From assembly GCA_027618255.1 (NCBI GenBank), contig JAQCFG010000009.1:1-46102 (forward strand): DNA of 46,102 nucleotides, written 5' to 3'. This stretch comes from Cyanobacteriota bacterium (lineage in GTDB: Bacteria; Cyanobacteriota; Vampirovibrionia; LMEP-6097). The position numbers and the translations under genes were made by a program. The notes below the pieces were generated by a model. It was not told the origin of the DNA. It saw only the letters and a list, made by a program, of their open reading frames with translations, and made no database searches. Shown piece by piece: positions 5,555 through 46,102 of this stretch. Every line of letters begins with the position of its first letter. Position 1 is the first letter of the stretch.

Positions 5555-6568
5555 ATGTCAGAAAATCACATACAACTTGATGACGAACTTGAACCAAGTT
5601 CAGAAGAACTTCTTGAAACAGAGGTCTTTGAAGAGAGCCTGAAAGAAAATGACGAGCTTGAAGAAGAGAAAAAAGACAAAGCAAAAACAACACTTAAAGA
5701 AAAAAAAGAAAGAGGCTCTAATGATGACAGTGTCTTCATGTATCTTAAAGAGATTGGTAAGATACCAACTCTCACAGCCGAGCAAGAAATTCTAATCACT
5801 CGCGAAATTCACAAAGGCGGGACAGGTGGTGAAAAAGCAAAACGACAACTTGTTCAAGCCAACCTCCGACTAGTAGTTAGTATCGCAAAACGATATTCGT
5901 CAACCAATATCCAATTATTAGATCTCATTCAAGAAGGCAATCTTGGTTTAATGAAAGCCGCTGACAAATTTGATCACGCCAAAGGCTACAAATTCAGTAC
6001 CTTTGCAACCTGGTGGATTAGACAAGCTATCAGCAGATCAATTGCTGACAAATCACGCACAATCAGAATCCCTGTGCACATGGTAGAAAACTCTAGTAAG
6101 CTCCGCAAAGTTATCACCAAACTTAGTAATGCTTTAGGTAGGCTCCCCACTGACGAAGAAATTGCCGGCACCTTAGATATCACAATAGAAAAACTTCACG
6201 AAATTCAGAACTTGCACATGAAAACTATTTCAATGTCCAGCAAAGTTGGTAGCAATGAAGATGGCTCTTCCCTCGCCGACTTTATTCAAAGCGACGATTC
6301 TTACGCCTCGCCAGACCAGTATGCAACTGCTCAATTACTTAAAGCCGAACTCAAAAATGTCATCAATGATCTTTCCGATGACGAACAAAGTGTTCTCATC
6401 CTCCGTTATGGTTTACTTGAAGATGAGCACCAAAAGATATACAACTTTGAAGAACTAGCAGAAATGCTAAATATGAGCAAAGACAAGGTCAAAAAGCTTG
6501 AAGCAAAGGCGCTGCGCAAACTCAAGGCGCATGTACTCAAGACCGGCAAGCTCCAAGAATTCATTTGA
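5555..6568 (+). CDS. rpoD: RNA polymerase sigma-70 family factor, primary-like
   Basis: The 337-aa protein has a short, very acidic N-terminal region (about 1-60), then region 1.2 ([14 protein letters not shown]), and a near-canonical region 2 ([43 protein letters not shown]) for -10 binding and promoter melting. Region 3 and a region 4 follow. Region 4.2 is odd: the usual TRERIRQIE recognition helix reads [10 protein letters not shown] before the conserved AKALRKLK, so its -35 reading may be altered. It is much shorter than proteobacterial RpoD and lacks the large non-conserved insert, as in cyanobacterial and other primary factors. It may be the group 1 factor or a group 2 paralogue. A family A repeat begins at its stop codon. 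Confidence 0.85.
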
Positions 6569-6694
6569 TAACATAGCCCCAAAGTCCCATCTGCTGCGTT
6601 ACGCTCATCCTTCAAAATCCTCATTGGCGGCTCAGCCAACTGCGGTTTTTCAGAACTCGCAAGCCTTGCATATGAACCTTTGGAACTATGTTAT
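6568..6694 (-). repeat. Family A palindromic element, copy A1 (intergenic)
   Basis: The outer stem is ATAACATAG..CCAAAG (6568-6584) pairing with CTTTGG..CTATGTTAT (6678-6694). Inside, on the minus strand, are the conserved GAGCGTAACGCAG, a TTGGCTGAGCCGCCAA hairpin and GCAAGGCTTGCG blocks. It fills the gap between the sigma factor stop and the promoter of the next gene. On the minus strand the conserved frame (LAEPPMRILKDERNAADG) is open, but no gene uses it. Confidence 0.85.
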
Positions 6695-6697
6695 ACG

Positions 6698-6706
6698 TGA
6701 TAAAAT
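6698..6706 (+). promoter_or_regulatory. Extended -10 (TGATAAAAT) of the 6713 gene
   Basis: TG-A-TAAAAT is followed by 6 nt and then the ATG at 6713, implying a leaderless mRNA. It lies 3 bp beyond the family A element. Confidence 0.6.
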
Positions 6707-16170: not shown

Positions 16171-17166
16171 TTATGGTTTCAAAAGAACTATATTGTGATA
16201 ACCAATAAAACTAAGTTCAGCAGCACCAGTCATAAAGATAGTCTCAGCCACAGAATCCCAGCGAATAACCAAAGTGCCGCCAGGCAGCTCCACTTCTATA
16301 TCAGTATCTTTTTGGACATGTCCTCTCAAAACAGCAGAGACTACAGTCGCGCAAGCACCAGTACCGCAAGCCTCGGTAAAACCACAACCTCGTTCCCAAA
16401 CTACTAGCTTGATCTTGGTTGGACTAATAATTTGAGCAAACTCTACATTAGTTTTTTGCGGGAAGTTCTTATGAGTCTCGATCTCTGGACCATGAGCTTT
16501 AACAGCTTCAATATCCTCAACAAAAGTGATTGCATGGGGATTGCCCATAGAAATAAAGTCATAGTCAAATCTTACCTGCAAAGACCCATCTGCTGCGTTA
16601 CGCTCATCCTGACCAGTCATCATCGACGGCTCAGTCAACTCAGCCTGATCAGAATTTCGCAAGCCTTGCATATGAGCCTTTTCAGGCAAGATTCCCAAGT
16701 CATCCAATAAAAGCGAAAGCCCTTCCTCTATAGACCTTGCAGCTCCCATATCAACTCTGACCATCTCATTATCAAGTAACTCAAGTCCAATATCACCAGC
16801 CAAAGTCTCTAACTTAAAACTAGTCTCTTCGCCACTAAGCCCATGTTCATAAATATATTTTGCAGCGCAACGCACACCATTGCCGCACATCTCAGCGATA
16901 GTCCCATCAGAGTTATAGAATCTCCAAGAGCGAATAGCATGTTCAGATTCTTTAACTTGATCAATAATTATCAAACCATCAGCACCAATACCACGATTGC
17001 GATCACAGATCTTACGCGTCAAAGCAGTCTCGTAATCGACATTAGAGTCAGTAGGCAAGTGACTAGCGTTAACAATGACAAAATCATTGCCCAATCCATG
17101 CATTTTTTCAAATGGCATTAAGTAGCTAGTACCTTGTTTATATTTTTCTTCTGCGAGGCCTTCCAT
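16171..17166 (-). CDS. dapF: Diaminopimelate epimerase with an in-frame family A element
   Basis: Interconverts LL- and meso-diaminopimelate for lysine and peptidoglycan synthesis. Catalytic cysteines are seen in MCGNGVRCAAKY (about residue 94) and ACGTGACATVV (about 267); KMHGLGNDFVIV and ISMGNPHAITFV are also present. At 331 aa it exceeds the usual ~275-280. About 40 residues (159-199) are encoded by a family A element, including LTEPSMMTGQDERNAADGSL, placed just before the strand leading into FISMGNPHA, where most homologues have only a short loop. The frame is kept. Another ~16 N-terminal residues come from the start at 17166, chosen because an extended -10 is 9 nt upstream; MPFEKMHGLGN at 17118 is the family-like alternative. 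It follows the MnmC-type gene with a 15-bp gap. Confidence 0.92.
   Translation of the reverse strand: MEGLAEEKYKQGTSYLMPFEKMHGLGNDFVIVNASHLPTDSNVDYETALTRKICDRNRGIGADGLIIIDQVKESEHAIRSWRFYNSDGTIAEMCGNGVRCAAKYIYEHGLSGEETSFKLETLAGDIGLELLDNEMVRVDMGAARSIEEGLSLLLDDLGILPEKAHMQGLRNSDQAELTEPSMMTGQDERNAADGSLQVRFDYDFISMGNPHAITFVEDIEAVKAHGPEIETHKNFPQKTNVEFAQIISPTKIKLVVWERGCGFTEACGTGACATVVSAVLRGHVQKDTDIEVELPGGTLVIRWDSVAETIFMTGAAELSFIGYHNIVLLKP
16571..16690 (-). repeat. Family A palindromic element, copy A2, inside dapF
   Basis: Exactly 120 bp. The outer stem CTTaCCTGcAAAG (16571-16583) pairs with CTTTtCAGGcAAG (16678-16690). The inner variable stem CTGATCAG pairs with CTGGTCAG. Conserved loops TTGACTGAGCCGTCGATGATG and GATGAGCGTAACGCAG are on the minus strand, so the element is co-oriented with dapF and read in the same frame as in otsB. 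Confidence 0.9.
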
Positions 17167-17175
17167 TTGCATCAA

Positions 17176-17922: not shown

Positions 17923-18789
17923 ATGCAAGAACTCACTCAGCAACTCTTCCAAGACCTACTCAGCAAACAAAACAAAATAGCCTTTTGTTTTGATTACGAC
18001 GGTACCCTCGTTGAGCTTGCCAAAGAAAACATAGTTCACGCAGCGCTATTCCCGCAGTCAACAGCGCAGCTACTTAATGAACTTGCCAAGAAAGCTCCAG
18101 TGGCAATTATTACCGGTAGAGAACTCAAGAACCTTAAAGCCCTACTCAATAATCAATTAGATCCTGCCATTCATCTCTATGGTACTCATGGTGTTGAAAT
18201 GGGAAAAGATAGTGAGGATGATCAATACTTAGAGCATCTCAATACAATCAGGACGATCTTTAGTGAAGATCCAGATATTGAATTTGAACAAAAAAGAATC
18301 TCAATTACTATTCATTATTTAAATCATCCTCAGCCGCAAGACTTACTAAATAAATTACGAGAGCTTGCAAAAAGCTACAGCTCGATTTTTCGTATTCAGG
18401 AAGGTAGAGACTTTTTTGAATTCCTGCCGATCAATATTAACAAGGGAATGGCAATCCTCGATGTCGCCAAGAAACACCCAGGCTATTTTCTGCTTTATTT
18501 TGGTGATGACTTAACTGATATTTATGCCTTTAAAGAAGTCAATAAGCTTGGTGGCTTATCTTGCCAGGTATCTAAGCGTATTACGAACTGGTGCGAAAAG
18601 CTTTCAGATACAAGGCTTGCGAATCCCTTGGTGACTGAGTTGACTGAGCCGTCGATGATGGCGCCAAAGGATGAGCGTAACGCAGTAGATGAGGCTTTGC
18701 GTACTGGTTCGAAAAATGGTCAAGCTGGGTATCTTATTAATAAGGTCATTGATTTACACCAGCTAATAGCTTGCTATCTGGATCAATAG
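17923..18789 (+). CDS. otsB: Trehalose-6-phosphate phosphatase with an in-frame family A element
   Basis: HAD-superfamily phosphatase that releases trehalose from trehalose 6-phosphate. Visible: FDYDGTLVEL (nucleophile Asp), VAIITGREL, LYGTHGVEM, 'FFEFLPININKGMAI' (catalytic Lys) and 'YFGDDLTDIYAFK' (Mg ligands). About residues 221-262 come from a family A element (LTEPSMMAPKDERNAVDEAL), placed near the C-terminus between 'GLSCQVSKR' and the final 'AGYLINKVIDLHQLI'. The frame stays open and the HAD motifs are untouched, so the protein is probably active. No otsA (synthase) gene is in the window. The upstream ATG at 17911 is an alternative start. pilB follows after 24 bp. Confidence 0.9.
   Translation: MQELTQQLFQDLLSKQNKIAFCFDYDGTLVELAKENIVHAALFPQSTAQLLNELAKKAPVAIITGRELKNLKALLNNQLDPAIHLYGTHGVEMGKDSEDDQYLEHLNTIRTIFSEDPDIEFEQKRISITIHYLNHPQPQDLLNKLRELAKSYSSIFRIQEGRDFFEFLPININKGMAILDVAKKHPGYFLLYFGDDLTDIYAFKEVNKLGGLSCQVSKRITNWCEKLSDTRLANPLVTELTEPSMMAPKDERNAVDEALRTGSKNGQAGYLINKVIDLHQLIACYLDQ
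18585..18710 (+). repeat. Family A palindromic element, copy A3, inside otsB
   Basis: 126 bp (42 codons). The outer arms GAACTGGTGCGAAAAGC (18585-18601) and GCTTTGCGTACTGGTTC (18694-18710) pair with G-U wobbles and a few mismatches. The inner variable stem CCCTTGGTG pairs with CGCCAAAGG. Conserved loops CAAGGCTTGCGAA, TTGACTGAGCCGTCGATGATG and GATGAGCGTAACGCAG are present in the same orientation and frame as the gene. Confidence 0.88.
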
Positions 18790-22633: not shown

Positions 22634-23641
22634 CTAAAGCAATAGGCAGACATCCCCATAACTATAGAACCTATATTTCTCTTGAATAGCTATCTGGTAA
22701 AGCTCTTGCACCTTCTCTAGTCCAATCAAAGCACTAATCAAAACAATCAAACTAGACTTCGGCAAATGGAAATTAGTAATCAATCCATCAATGATTTTAA
22801 ATTCAAAACCAGGACTAATAAATATATCAGTGGCGCCAGTAAGTTCACCAGTTCGTGCGACTGACTCTAAGACCCGAGTGGAAGTACTACCAACTGCAAT
22901 AATTCTTCTACCTTGTTTTTTAGCTTGAAGAATTTTGCTCCAAGTATTTTGACTAATAGAGTAATGCTCCAAATGCATTTTGTGCTCACTGACATTATCA
23001 ACTTTGATGGGAGCAAAAGTCCCAAGACCAACATGCAAAGTTAGTTCAGCTATTTCAATACCAGCAGCAACTAAACCTTGATCAATCTCATGGGTGAAAT
23101 GCAATCCAGCAGTAGGCGCAGCGACACTACCAGCCTCACGTGCATAAACAGTTTGATAACGCTGCTTGTCAAATTCTTCAGCATCACGTTTCATATAAGG
23201 AGGAATCGGCATCATGCCACAAGCATCAATTGCTAGATTGAACTTCTCTTCTGTTCCAAAATCCACCAATACATCATCGCCTTGACGCTCAATAAAAATC
23301 TCTTGATTATTGTCTAAAAAATATCGACGACCTGCTTTAATACGTTTGGCATTTCCAGCCAAGGCCTTATAGCTTGACTTGGTGATAGGATCCAAAAGCA
23401 AAATCTCTAGCTTAGAACCAGTATCAGTATCCACCACAAAACGAGCAGCAAGCACTCGACTGTTGTTTCTCACGATCAAATCACCTGGCTTCAAAATAGA
23501 CAGAATATCAATAAACTTTTTATGCTCCAGTGAATCTGTATTACAAGAATAATGCAATAAACGAGACTGATCCCGACGCTCCAATGGGTAGCTTGCTATT
23601 AGCTGCTCAGGTAAATCAAAATTAAAGTCTTCAAGCTTCAT
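22634..23641 (-). CDS. queA: S-adenosylmethionine:tRNA ribosyltransferase-isomerase
   Basis: Transfers and isomerises the ribosyl moiety of SAM onto preQ1-tRNA, giving epoxyqueuosine at the wobble position. Recognised from 'MKLEDFNFDLPEQLIASYPLERRDQSRLL' at the N-terminus (written here only in part as family phrase), 'GSVAAPTAGLHFT', 'ELTLHVGLGTFAPI', 'RIIAVGSTSTRVLES' and the end 'FYSYGDVCLL'. About 335 aa, usual for the family. The start is taken as MKLEDF at 23641. An in-frame ATG 18 nt upstream (MSGYDP) and a far upstream one are less likely. The start codon lies inside one arm of a 36-bp perfect inverted repeat shared with the divergent glycosyltransferase gene. Confidence 0.95.
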   Translation of the reverse strand: MKLEDFNFDLPEQLIASYPLERRDQSRLLHYSCNTDSLEHKKFIDILSILKPGDLIVRNNSRVLAARFVVDTDTGSKLEILLLDPITKSSYKALAGNAKRIKAGRRYFLDNNQEIFIERQGDDVLVDFGTEEKFNLAIDACGMMPIPPYMKRDAEEFDKQRYQTVYAREAGSVAAPTAGLHFTHEIDQGLVAAGIEIAELTLHVGLGTFAPIKVDNVSEHKMHLEHYSISQNTWSKILQAKKQGRRIIAVGSTSTRVLESVARTGELTGATDIFISPGFEFKIIDGLITNFHLPKSSLIVLISALIGLEKVQELYQIAIQEKYRFYSYGDVCLLL

Positions 23642-23744
23642 AGGGTCGTATCCGGACATCGGACATTTACTCGATAATATACTATACTTAAGCCAAAGAT
23701 CGACATAAAAATGTCCGATGTCCGGATACGACCCTATGAAGCTT
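23633..23744. repeat. Perfect 36-bp inverted repeat spanning the starts of queA and the glycosyltransferase gene
   Basis: Arm 23633-23668 is the exact reverse complement of arm 23709-23744, with a 40-bp AT-rich spacer. Each arm ends just after the ATGAAGCTT of one gene, so both genes begin MKL and both transcripts carry the same leader. Each leader also contains ATGTCCGATGTCC... encoding the same 11-codon frame MSDVRIRPYEA, stopping at TGA (queA side) or TAG (other side). Confidence 0.97.
23674..23679 (-). promoter_or_regulatory. -10-like box (TATTAT) in the spacer, reading toward queA
   Basis: TATTAT on the minus strand lies 7 nt before the ATG of the 11-codon upstream frame. The spacer also carries TATACT-like sequences on the plus strand. 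A bidirectional promoter is likely. Confidence 0.4.
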
Positions 23745-26756: not shown

Positions 26757-26869
26757 TAGATATCTTGCGAAACGAAGTTTCGCAGTAGATGTCGCCCAAA
26801 AAAAGGTCGCAACGACGCCAGTAGGCGGAAGTTGCGTTGATGATAATTCCGACTTTCGCAAAAGGTCTA
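26757..26869 (+). repeat. Family B structured repeat, copy B3
   Basis: TAGA-ATCTTGCGAAACgaaGTTTCGCAGTAGAT forms stem I. Conserved GTCGCC-A-tract-GGTCGCAACG, stem II (GCAAC..CGCC/GGCG..GTTGC) and GATAATTCCGACTTTCGCA follow, ending GGTCTA. The 3' TTTCGCA is the complement of the 5' TGCGAAA. Nearly identical to B4, which flanks the other end of the 26898 gene. Confidence 0.9.
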
Positions 26870-26870
26870 T

Positions 26871-27695: not shown

Positions 27696-27809
27696 TAAGA
27701 TATCTTGCGAAACGAAGTTTCGCAGTAGATGTCGCCTCAAAAAAGGTCGCAACGACACCAGTAGGCGGAAGTTGCGTTAATGATAATTCCGACTTTCGCA
27801 AAAGGTCTA
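27696..27809 (+). repeat. Family B structured repeat, copy B4, inside a terminator-like inverted repeat
   Basis: Almost identical to B3 (TGCGAAACgaaGTTTCGC stem, GTCGCCTC-A-tract-GGTCGCAACG, GATAATTCCGACTTTCGCA, GGTCTA). Flanking it, GAAAAAAGATGCT (about 27684-27696) pairs with AGCATCTTTTTT (about 27818-27829), so the repeat sits in the loop of a terminator-like hairpin with a T-run. It lies upstream of the minus-strand exported-protein gene. Confidence 0.9.
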
Positions 27810-27827
27810 TAGACAAGAGCATCTTTT

Positions 27828-27863: not shown

Positions 27864-27953
27864 ATGGCAATTGCAATTTTAGGTACATTTACAGTAGTCG
27901 TATCCGTAGTGAGCGTCCTTATGTATATGATTTATAACGAGAAACACGAATAG
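27864..27953 (+). CDS. Predicted 29-aa single-span membrane peptide
   Basis: ATG to TAG gives 29 residues: MAIAILGTF, a hydrophobic stretch (TVVVSVVSVLMYMIY) and a charged end NEKHE. It has one clear transmembrane helix with a short charged tail. It has a consensus-like promoter at leaderless distance, which is the main support that it is real. Its TAG stop is the first three bases of the next family B repeat (TAGAC), so a repeat insertion may have set the C-terminus. Such microproteins often stabilise larger membrane complexes (cf. KdpF, CydX), but the partner is unknown. No homology recognised. Confidence 0.5.
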   Translation: MAIAILGTFTVVVSVVSVLMYMIYNEKHE

Positions 27954-28062
27954 ACATCCTGCAAAACCCCGTTTTGCTAGTGATGTCGCTTTAAAAAAGG
28001 TAGTAACCGCAACGAATGTTATGTTTGCTTTAAGGATAATTCCGACTTTTGCAGTAAGTCTA
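27951..28062 (+). repeat. Family B structured repeat, copy B5
   Basis: TAGACATC-CTGCAAAACcccGTTTTGC-TAGTGATGTC stem I, then GC-T-A-tract-GGTAGTAACC, stem II with GCAACgaatGTT, then GGATAATTCCGACTTTTGCA and AAGTCTA. Stem sequence differs from B3/B4 while pairing and conserved loops are kept. Nearly the reverse complement of copy B6 at 36.4 kb. Confidence 0.9.
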
Positions 28063-28200
28063 ATAAGTTAAGATTCTCTTATGGACCCGACTAGAAAACT
28101 TCGTTTTTCAGCGTGTCCTTATCAAATACCACATTAAATCATCTATATATGAATGTGAGCACAAGCTCGTGGGTAAAACAATATTAAGGAGTTTTCCTTA

Positions 28201-28871: not shown

Positions 28872-28895
28872 ACTAGAATCACCTAGTCTTTTTTT
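28872..28895 (+). terminator. Intrinsic terminator after the coiled-coil gene
   Basis: ACTAG-aatcac-CTAGT followed by CTTTTTTT. A short stem with a good U-tract. Its right arm is also the left outer arm of family A copy A4, so the terminator and the element's stem are mutually exclusive folds. Confidence 0.6.
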
Positions 28896-29012
28896 AAAAT
28901 GTTCAAGAGCAAGGCCTGCGAAGTTATAAAAAGGCTGAGTTGACTGAGCCGTCAATGATGACTTTTTATAACAAGCGTAACGCAGCTATTGGGCATTTGA
29001 AAACAAGACTAG
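28883..29012 (+). repeat. Family A palindromic element, copy A4 (between convergent genes)
   Basis: Outer stem CTAGTCTT-TTTT-AAATG (left) pairs with CATTT-GAAAA-CAAGACTAG (right, ending 29012). Inner variable stem GTTATAAAAAG (28923-28933) pairs perfectly with CTTTTTATAAC (28962-28972). Conserved GTTCAAGAGCAAGGCCTGCG, TTGACTGAGCCGTCAATGATG and AAGCGTAACGCAGCTATTGGGC blocks. The right end overlaps the trigger factor stop codon. The plus-strand element frame is open though unused. Confidence 0.92.
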
Positions 29013-30334
29013 TGGTTGCAATCAGCTGTATGTACGTGCCCTTCCACTTCATTATATTGAATATCCGCAGCTTCGATTAATAAATCAATAGCTTTTTGAG
29101 TTAACAAATCCAAGTTCAATCTGTTTACCAAGCCTTCCATGTCAATTTGTGAGCGGTCCATATTCGGTGGAAAGTTTAATTTAGAGATTTCTTTTCTGAT
29201 TTCGTCTTCAGTAATTTCCATTTTTTGTTCACGAATAATAGTAGTAATTAAAATACTTTTTTCAAGTTTGCCACGTGCTCTGTCCATTTCAGCTTCACGA
29301 TCCATCGAACTCATATAGTCTTTGACCTTGTCTTCATCCCACTTGTTTTGATATTGAAGTGTTGCAATATCATTTTCAAGCTCGCGCGAAACCATCGCTT
29401 CAGAGATCTTGACTGTTGATTGAGCATGTAGCTCAGTGATTATCGCTTCACTAGTAATTCCCTTACGAGTTTGTTCACTCATCTTGGTTACTTCTTCTCT
29501 GATTTTAGTACTTAGTTCATCCATTGTTTCAATGCCAAAGTTTTTAGCAAAATCATCGTTAAGTTCTGGCGTAGTAGCTTTGGATACTTTTTGAATTTTG
29601 ACTTTAAATTTTGCATCTCTACTTGCAAGTTCTGGATCATGGTATTGATCAGGAAATTTAACGTCTATTGTTTTTTCATCACCAGCTTTCATACCAACTG
29701 TTTGTTCTAAGAAATTATCAATAAACCTACCGGCTTCAACAATTGTTTGAAAACCTTCTGATTTCATTCCAGCTTTTGGTTCAAACTCACCAGCGTCATT
29801 TTTGAAAGAACCGTCAAAATCAAGAATAATTTCATCGCTCAATACAATAGCCTTATCTGACTCATTATAAGTCGATTGCTGGTTAGTTAATCTCTTAAGC
29901 GTATCAGCATACTGAGCTTCAATATCGAATTTAGGCACGTCCACTGTTAATTTAAATTTGGCATAATCGGCCATTTTAACTTCAGGGAAAAGCTCAATCT
30001 TTGCTTCTACTTTAATTGAAGCCTCTGGGCTATCAAATTCAACTTTGCTCACTTGAGCTATGTTCACCACATTCAAGTCTTGTTCTTTAAATACTTGATC
30101 AAATAAATTGGATAAGAATTTATTATTCACAGTTTCAGCTCTGACACGATCAGCACCAAAATGATCTTCAACTACTTTCGTTGGTGCTTTACCCTTGCGG
30201 AAACCCTTGATAGTTAAGTCCTTGGCTAAAGCCTTAAGTGTTCTACTATAAGCATCTTTGGCAATACCGGCTTCCGTTTCAAAATTGATAGTCGCCATAT
30301 TGTTTTCGTCTTTCTCTGTTACTGTTACTTGCAT
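29009..30334 (-). CDS. tig: Trigger factor
   Basis: Ribosome-bound chaperone with peptidyl-prolyl isomerase. N-terminal ribosome-binding domain with the signature 'KGFRKGKAPTKVVEDHFG' (GFRxGKxP). Then an FKBP-like PPIase domain around residues 150-245 ('DEIILDFDGSF...FIDNFLEQTVGMKAGDEKTIDVKFPDQY'), and a long helical C-terminal domain. It ends in a His-rich tail (HVHTADCNH). Start at 30334 (MQVTVTEKD) is preferred because TATAAT lies 7 nt upstream; the ATG at 30343 overlaps the -10 itself. 441 aa, normal length. Often next to clpP, which is not in the window. A 63-bp palindrome lies in the promoter gap. Confidence 0.95.
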   Translation of the reverse strand: MQVTVTEKDENNMATINFETEAGIAKDAYSRTLKALAKDLTIKGFRKGKAPTKVVEDHFGADRVRAETVNNKFLSNLFDQVFKEQDLNVVNIAQVSKVEFDSPEASIKVEAKIELFPEVKMADYAKFKLTVDVPKFDIEAQYADTLKRLTNQQSTYNESDKAIVLSDEIILDFDGSFKNDAGEFEPKAGMKSEGFQTIVEAGRFIDNFLEQTVGMKAGDEKTIDVKFPDQYHDPELASRDAKFKVKIQKVSKATTPELNDDFAKNFGIETMDELSTKIREEVTKMSEQTRKGITSEAIITELHAQSTVKISEAMVSRELENDIATLQYQNKWDEDKVKDYMSSMDREAEMDRARGKLEKSILITTIIREQKMEITEDEIRKEISKLNFPPNMDRSQIDMEGLVNRLNLDLLTQKAIDLLIEAADIQYNEVEGHVHTADCNH

Positions 30335-30341
30335 CCTGCTC

Positions 30342-30347
30342 ATTATA
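30342..30347 (-). promoter_or_regulatory. -10 box (TATAAT) of tig
   Basis: Perfect TATAAT on the minus strand, 7 nt before the ATG at 30334. The longer reading would start inside this box. Confidence 0.6.
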
Positions 30348-34558: not shown

Positions 34559-34575
34559 GTAGCCTGTCTAATAGA

Positions 34576-34700
34576 CTACTTGTTCTGAAATGTTCAAGAG
34601 CAAGGCTTGATTATTTTTGTAAACCGCAGTTGACTGAGCCGTCAATGAGGATTTACAAAAATGAGCGTAACGCAGCTATTGGGCATTTCAGGACAAGTAG
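34576..34700 (+). repeat. Family A palindromic element, copy A5, as ftsE leader
   Basis: Outer stem CTACTTGTTCTGAAATG (34576-34592) pairs with CATTTCAGGACAAGTAG (34684-34700), one G-U. Inner variable stem TTTTTGTAAA pairs with TTTACAAAAA. Conserved GTTCAAGAGCAAGGCTTG, TTGACTGAGCCGTCAATGA and GAGCGTAACGCAGCTATTGGGC blocks. It ends 1 bp before the ATG of ftsE, in the same orientation, and its open frame runs in frame into ftsE. Confidence 0.92.
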
Positions 34701-34701
34701 A

Positions 34702-35400
34702 ATGATCAAATTAAAGAATGTTAGCAAACAATACGGCACAATCAAGGCTCTTGATGGAATCAACCTGGATATAAAATCTGGCGAGATGGCTCTTTTAGTT
34801 GGTTCAAGCGGTGCCGGCAAATCCACACTCATGAAGCTACTTTATCGTGAAGAAAGGCCGACAACCGGCAATATAATAATTGGCAATATTGATGTTAGTT
34901 CTTTATCCGATGCCAAAATTCCTTATTTGAGAAGAAGAATGGGAATCGTATTTCAAGATTTTAAATTATTGCCAAACAAATCAGCTTTTGAAAATGTTGC
35001 CTACGCGCTTAGAGGTCTTGGCGCAGAGGAATACGAAATCCAAAAACGTGTTTCTGGTGCACTTAAATTAGTTGGTTTATTAGAGAGAGCTTTTAATTTA
35101 CCTAGCGAACTTTCCGGTGGTGAACAGCAACGTGTGGGTATCGCAAGAGCCATCGTCCAAGGACCTCCACTCGTTATTGCCGATGAGCCAACGGGCAACT
35201 TAGATCCGTCAACCAGTCTCGAGATTTTCAATTTGCTTTCAAGAATCGCAGAGCGCGGCACCACAGTACTCGTGAGTACTCATAACCAACATATAGTAGA
35301 GAGTTTTGGTAAAAGAATTATTACCCTCGACAAAGGTCAGGTCGTTAGTGACATTGGACCGACAACCAATAATCACAATTTTGCACAACTAAGAAGATGA
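34702..35400 (+). CDS. ftsE: Cell division ABC transporter ATP-binding protein FtsE
   Basis: A 232-aa ATPase that with FtsX controls septal peptidoglycan hydrolases at the divisome. Walker A 'LVGSSGAGKSTLMK', Q-loop 'GIVFQDFKLLPNKSA', ABC signature 'LSGGEQQRVGIARAI', Walker B 'LVIADEPTGNLDPS', H-loop 'LVSTHNQHIV'. The start at 34702 (MIKLKNVSKQYG) matches the family. A longer start (TTG, 24 residues upstream) would be encoded entirely by the family A element. It overlaps ftsX by 4 bp (ATGA). No Shine-Dalgarno is visible because the element abuts the ATG, so translation may depend on the element's fold. Confidence 0.95.
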   Translation: MIKLKNVSKQYGTIKALDGINLDIKSGEMALLVGSSGAGKSTLMKLLYREERPTTGNIIIGNIDVSSLSDAKIPYLRRRMGIVFQDFKLLPNKSAFENVAYALRGLGAEEYEIQKRVSGALKLVGLLERAFNLPSELSGGEQQRVGIARAIVQGPPLVIADEPTGNLDPSTSLEIFNLLSRIAERGTTVLVSTHNQHIVESFGKRIITLDKGQVVSDIGPTTNNHNFAQLRR

Positions 35401-36272: not shown

Positions 36273-36434
36273 CCGAAAACCAAGGAGCTCGTGAGCGAAG
36301 TGTTGAGATTTTGCTGATTCGCGAGGGTTGCTCCTTGGATGAGGCGAGAGAGAGCCCAAATTTAAGGCAAAACCCGTTATTAAGACCTAAAAGAATCGTC
36401 ATTGTCAGAAGCCGAAGGCGACGAAGCAACCTAA
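36273..36434. other. Gap after ftsX: inverted repeat CCAAGGAGC/GCTCCTTGG
   Basis: CCAAGGAGC (36280-36288) and GCTCCTTGG (36330-36338) enclose an imperfect inner repeat (CTCGTGAGCGAA with TTCGCGAG). GC-richer than the coding DNA nearby. It may be the ftsX terminator or another degenerate repeat family. Together with copy B6 it fills the 375-bp gap before rfbF, and I see no gene. Confidence 0.35.
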
Positions 36435-36546
36435 TAGACTTACTGCAAAAGTCGGAATTGTCCTTAAAGCAAACGCAACATTCGTTGCGGTTGCGACCTT
36501 TTTTAAAGCGACATCACTAGCAAAACGGGGTTTTGCAGGATGTCTA
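36435..36546 (-). repeat. Family B structured repeat, copy B6 (reverse orientation)
   Basis: On the minus strand it reads TAGACATC-CTGCAAAACcccGTTTTGC-TAGTGATGTC, then GC-T-A-tract-GGTCGCAACC, GCAACgaatGTTGC, GGACAATTCCGACTTTTGCA and AAGTCTA. It differs from B5 at only a few positions, some restoring stem II pairing. Located between ftsX and rfbF. Confidence 0.9.
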
Positions 36547-45989: not shown

Positions 45990-46102
45990 TAGACCTGTTT
46001 CGAAACGAAGTTTCGAAGTACAGGTCGCCTGAAAAAAGGTAGCAACCGCAACGAATGTTGCGTGTTGCTTTTAGGATAATATTGACTTTCGAAACAAGTC
46101 TA
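45990..46102 (+). repeat. Family B structured repeat, copy B7 (ends at the window edge)
   Basis: TAGACCTG-TTTCGAAACgaaGTTTCGAAG-TACAGGTC stem I, then GCCT-A-tract-GGTAGCAACC, stem II GCAACgaatGTTGC, then AGGATAAT and GACTTTCGAAACAAGTCTA. The last 16 nt are the complement of the first 16 at 15 of 16 positions. Upstream of the OGT-like gene. Confidence 0.92.

Follow-up and report, generated by a model that had tools for sequence, protein, structure and literature searches.

A small, non-autonomous mobile palindromic element has very probably multiplied in one family of Candidatus Melainabacteria, adding in-frame segments to genes. The copy under study lies inside dapF, the gene for diaminopimelate epimerase, in a stretch of 46,102 nucleotides that was analyzed as a whole (the window), and repeat comparison showed that this element is homologous to four other places in the window. 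The features concerned are as follows.

16171 to 17175, minus strand: dapF, diaminopimelate epimerase with the in-frame insert; ORF of 334 aa, Pfam PF01678 (DAP_epimerase), E = 1.6e-61
16565 to 16699, minus strand: palindromic element in dapF (model match); covariance model, 127.7 bits
17911 to 18789, plus strand: trehalose-phosphatase family gene (otsB-like) with the second in-frame copy; Pfam PF02358; the orthologue in the same-genus genome G001 lacks exactly 129 bp
18580 to 18713, plus strand: palindromic element in otsB, in sense and in the same reading frame as in dapF; covariance model, 120.1 bits; translation TELTEPSMMAPKDERNAVDEALRTGS
34570 to 34703, plus strand: 5'-terminal copy in an ABC-ATPase ORF (judged by reading to be FtsE); covariance model, 109.3 bits, and ORF context
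28879 to 29013, plus strand: non-genic copy, its right end in contact with the stop codon of a gene on the minus strand (29009-30343); covariance model, 124.2 bits, and stop adjacency
6566 to 6699, minus strand: non-genic copy in contact with the stop codon of a plus-strand gene that ends at 6568; covariance model, 110.9 bits

An in-frame insert in dapF

A sequence-only reading of the window had described a palindromic repeat of exactly 120 bp inside dapF and co-oriented with it. The repeat and its orientation were borne out by covariance model matches at the other window copies and at no fewer than 45 places in the genome. The length was slightly too short, because the hairpin predicted by RNA folding spans about 16567-16694 (-62.2 kcal/mol, z = -7.9 against dinucleotide shuffles); the model match covers 16565-16699, and the net gain over the G001 gene is 123 bp. 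This gain equals 41 codons, in agreement with the roughly 40 residues said to be encoded inside DapF, and adds a peptide of about ILPEKAHMQGLRNSDQAELTEPSMMTGQDERNAADGSLQVRF. According to the ORF listing and Pfam, the dapF reading frame contains no stop codon and no frameshift, and translation may well start instead at the first Met of MPFEKMHG. The catalytic cysteine motifs MCGNG and ACGTGA, one on each side of the insert, are both intact, as had been noticed from the sequence.

The closest named relative is a Candidatus Melainabacteria genome of the same genus (G001, JABHOV010000121.1), whose DapF lacks residues 158-201 and is 95% and 88% identical in protein over the two flanks. The insert is also absent from G002 to G007, and DapF is continuous at the site in further family members. 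The comparison with sister species that the earlier reading had proposed thus revealed close relatives without the insert, which was gained recently. An ancestral loop or an unrelated insertion was ruled out by these empty sites and by the homology of the insert to dozens of copies elsewhere. Across the class, DapF varies in length at this site, suggesting that the site is a permissive loop.

Only one dapF was detected in the assembly (95.7% complete). Its dN/dS against G001 is 0.116, and the dN to the outgroup G002 is 0.146 for the insert-bearing gene, close to 0.130 for the insert-free gene. The single copy is still under purifying selection, and a dead dapF was ruled out by the intact frame, the sole copy and the dN/dS value. 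These data support the proposal that an essential enzyme tolerates an insert of about 40 residues; judging from the gene, the additional residues would be produced and the enzyme would have retained its activity.

The earlier reading had also proposed structure prediction as a check of whether the insert is a surface loop, placing it between a helix and the strand FDYDFISMGNPHA. The AlphaFold model, based on an alignment of five sequences only, has the DapF fold (mean pLDDT 74.8, best PDB match 9mro_A). The strand after the insert was recovered in the model, whereas the insert is preceded by a strand and a short turn rather than by any substantial helix. The pLDDT is below 50 over model residues 145-177 in this prediction, made with the same five-sequence alignment for dapF as the sole host modelled, and the insert therein has the low confidence that a disordered loop would show.

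The element family

The element is about 125-135 bp long, with the ends AGAACCT...AGGTTCT as terminal inverted repeats, and forms one long hairpin. By covariance model, at least 45 copies are present in the genome under study (G000), at least 55 in G001, at least 50 in G002, at least 41 in G004, at least 17 in G005 and at least 25 in G006, with one weak match in G003 and none in G007 and G008. A covariance model search of 51 other genomes of the class gave no match, and among the genomes searched the element is multicopy in six genomes of one bacterial family of Candidatus Melainabacteria. Copies differ mutually by 10-25%. The copies of the family all form one hairpin; compensatory double changes occur in 22 of its 32 pairs, and in 28 of 45 pairs when only gene-internal copies are considered. 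When the two strands were folded, the sense strand gave the better fold in 41 of 42 copies and equalled the antisense strand in the other; such strand-specific folding suits selection on RNA or on ssDNA of the sense strand, the two being unseparated here. The same hairpin structure is retained in the non-genic copies. A chance origin of the dapF repeat is excluded by the copy number, the covariation and the empty sites.

A longer variant (about 177-185 nt) with extra apical sequence was found in frame in two genes (L066:1496-1677, L172:1515-1699, L002:933-1109). The window also carries a second palindromic family of the GCGAAAC..GTTTCGC type (27951-28069, 36428-36546, 26758-26870, 27698-27810 and 45993-46057), with 44 matches in this genome. 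Several of its copies are 96-97% identical, and this family is therefore apparently younger or more active than the element in dapF.

Copies outside genes and mobilization

Most non-genic copies lie directly against a stop codon that belongs to a gene on the other strand. The stop codon of the right-hand opposite-strand neighbour lies within 4 nt of the element end in 56 of 72 copies, compared with 4 of 44 for the mirrored geometry at the left end (Fisher p = 1e-13). One stop-adjacent copy in G001 is located at the stop codon of dapF, and the C-terminus of that DapF matches those of its relatives. In orthologues of different species or genera, the same stop codon can be followed by an element (L064/L091, L060/L230, L192/L196, L184/L214 and window 28879/L160), which reflects either the conservation of old copies or repeated targeting of the spot.

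The element would be moved by a trans-acting transposase. It is conceivable, though doubtful, that it is a REP/REPIN-like repeat moved as ssDNA by a RAYT (Y1/HUH) transposase. Within the family, G000, G001, G002, G004 and G005 are rich in RAYT-like genes as well as in the element, and G003 and G007 have almost none or none of either, a co-occurrence drawn from only eight genomes. The strand-specific selection on structure and the contact with stop codons on one side only also fit such a mover, since REPs supply stop codons (PMC3733652). However, the element does not flank RAYT genes as classical REPs do: none of the RAYT genes examined has a significant match next to it, the distance between a copy and a RAYT is about 1 kb in one case, and a different palindrome is found beside some RAYT genes. 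Moreover, G006 contains at least 25 copies yet only IS200-size Y1 genes and no full-length RAYT.

A perfect 36-bp inverted repeat with a 40-nt loop and the core AGGGTCGTATCCGGACAT is located at window 23633-23744. RAYT genes at L114, L124 and L125 are accompanied by a core that resembles this one without being identical, and the 36-bp repeat may therefore be the RAYTs' own.

Copies inside genes

The gene context of 143 copies was examined. The element lies in sense inside 26 distinct genes and in antisense inside 4 (binomial p = 6e-5), as counted by hand from tables with orthologous pairs taken once and with a weak 125-aa ORF and gene-end copies omitted. Sense hosts include dapF, otsB, mutS, gatB, cysS, dapA, uppS and recR. 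Hosts confirmed by Pfam are MutS, GatB, CysS (cysteinyl-tRNA synthetase), DapA, UppS (undecaprenyl diphosphate synthase) and RecR, together with RibE (riboflavin synthase), acetyl-CoA synthetase, transketolase, a DAHP/KDO8P-synthase family protein and a GidA-family protein. The antisense hosts are TrmD, RadA-like, AcrB-family and PurL-like proteins, RadA and PurL being identified partly by reading. Two species have the antisense copy in TrmD at one and the same site, where it is in frame (L168:1507-1640, L217:1529-1662). In the window, the open frame of the ABC-ATPase passes through the copy at 34570-34703, and its true start codon may lie downstream of this copy.

In all 17 internal host genes that were compared with their nearest relative, the relative's gene is uninterrupted or shorter and the net gain (81-180 bp) is divisible by three, which has a probability of 8e-9 if frames were free; a hyuA-like copy (L050, 134 bp) at a gene start was excluded from this set. 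Against more distant relatives, three gains are indivisible by three (otsB 143, PNP 109 and ribE 124). These probably reflect alignment slack, because the gain does divide by three against the same-genus or nearest relative. Read in sense, the element has exactly one stop-free frame out of three, and all sense copies read the AELTEPSMM...ERNAADG frame or its subfamily equivalents. The consensus of the inserted peptide is about QNLSEKLPDARLA...AELTEPSMMTxxxERNAADGTLRVGS, about 40 hydrophilic residues. In G000 and G001, none of the 22 sense-genic copies has a stop in the coding frame, compared with 21 of the 42 other copies; this comparison is partly circular because an open frame through the element defined a copy as genic. 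Around the remaining copies, none of 57 neighbouring same-strand ORF pairs inspected by eye resembled two halves of one protein.

Most insertions occur in only one of two close species. The mtnA gene carries a short in-frame remnant in G000 and a full element in G001, whereas the insertions in acs (acetyl-CoA synthetase) and trmFO are common to both genomes, indicating that insertions differ in age. The core of the acs insertion is 100% identical between the two species, with flanks of 95% and 84% (L049:1529-1662, L083:1460-1593), which reflects either a strong double constraint or a recent exchange.

We propose that, when the element enters in sense and in the open frame, the gene would gain about 40 hydrophilic residues, which would be translated. 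Gene-breaking insertions would be removed by selection, while codon-multiple additions to loops would survive, examples being dapF and no fewer than 25 further genes, and would later decay by in-frame deletion. A bolder reading, which we regard as unlikely, combines two targeted modes of insertion, one setting the 3' end at opposite-strand stop codons and the other placing the element inside genes in sense in its sole open frame. The hairpin would then mark an RNA or ssDNA intermediate of an undescribed mobilization that spares its hosts by target choice, beyond selection after random insertion.

It is quite improbable that the gene-internal copies have been domesticated and are useful to their hosts, by altered activity, regulation through an mRNA hairpin or protein interaction. 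The joint preservation of hairpin and reading frame would be expected of useful copies, as would the acs insertion in two species with its fully identical core between flanks of 95% and 84%. On the other hand, unrelated genes serve as hosts and take the insertion at different sites, most insertions are limited to one of two close species, and the mtnA copy is decaying.

An insert that remains untranslated, its hairpin being cut from the mRNA as a small intron or skipped by the ribosome in the manner of mitochondrial byp elements, is still harder to sustain and very improbable. In its favour, the coding sequence contains a very stable, covarying, strand-specific hairpin, and the sense bias would fit an RNA-level process. 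Nevertheless, gains divisible by three in 17 of 17 genes would be unneeded if the insert were removed, and so would the stop-free frames of all sense-genic copies, half of the others having stops. In addition, no Rfam intron, ribozyme or other curated RNA family reaches threshold for the element, and non-genic copies keep the same structure. An assembly artefact, with repeat reads mis-joined into dapF of a fragmented MAG (104 contigs), is hardly credible. The junctions in dapF leave the frame exactly intact, and the pattern is repeated across 17 genes and across genomes assembled independently of one another, some of them named public records; since the copies differ by 10-25%, an erroneous joining of identical repeats is also unlikely.

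Comparison with known palindromic elements

No description of such elements in Melainabacteria was found in the open literature, the coverage of which was incomplete. REPs are 20-40 bp long and carry a GTAG or CGTC tag. They are palindromic, located mostly downstream of genes and sometimes inside them, and often supply or touch a stop codon (PMC3733652). The Melainabacteria element is likewise palindromic, touches stop codons and sometimes lies in genes, but it is about 130 bp long with the ends AGAACCT...AGGTTCT, and lacks the short palindrome of 20-40 nt with a GTAG tag at its foot. MITEs with open frames, such as ERIC, Yersinia YPAL and the Neisseria 107-bp Correia element, are 100-200 bp long, with terminal inverted repeats, a stable stem-loop and occasional in-frame fusions (PMC2229807). 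The element shares the terminal inverted repeats, the stable stem-loop and the in-frame fusions; it differs in that no target-site duplication was visible at 13 junctions aligned to a sister empty site, no parent transposon was found, and an unusually large share of its copies lies inside conserved genes.

The best-known protein-coding palindromes are those of Rickettsia and Wolbachia, where they have been discussed as a peculiarity. The insert-bearing host protein of Rickettsia gmk is reportedly translated and active. RPE and WPE are palindromes of 100-150 bp that fold into a single long stem-loop; their copies are dispersed, some of them intergenic and others in frame within conserved protein genes, and RPE inserts are solvent-exposed (PMC2229807, PMC3767692, PMC4224334, PMC10969869). 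The Melainabacteria element is also a long stem-loop palindrome that is both intergenic and in frame in unrelated conserved genes. R. japonica orthologues have been reported with the insert at the same locus (PMC3767692), whereas empty and filled sites are found here between species of one genus. The element was not classed as an RPE because its host phylum differs and because it was set beside RPE/WPE by description; by analogy, it appears to work like RPE/WPE while representing its own family in another phylum. An independent family in Melainabacteria, with many hosts and clear pairs of empty and filled sites, suggests that selfish hairpins repeatedly turn into extra protein segments. These pairs offer ready enzymes with and without the insert for tests of tolerance, and the gene-internal copies are constrained simultaneously as structure and as protein.
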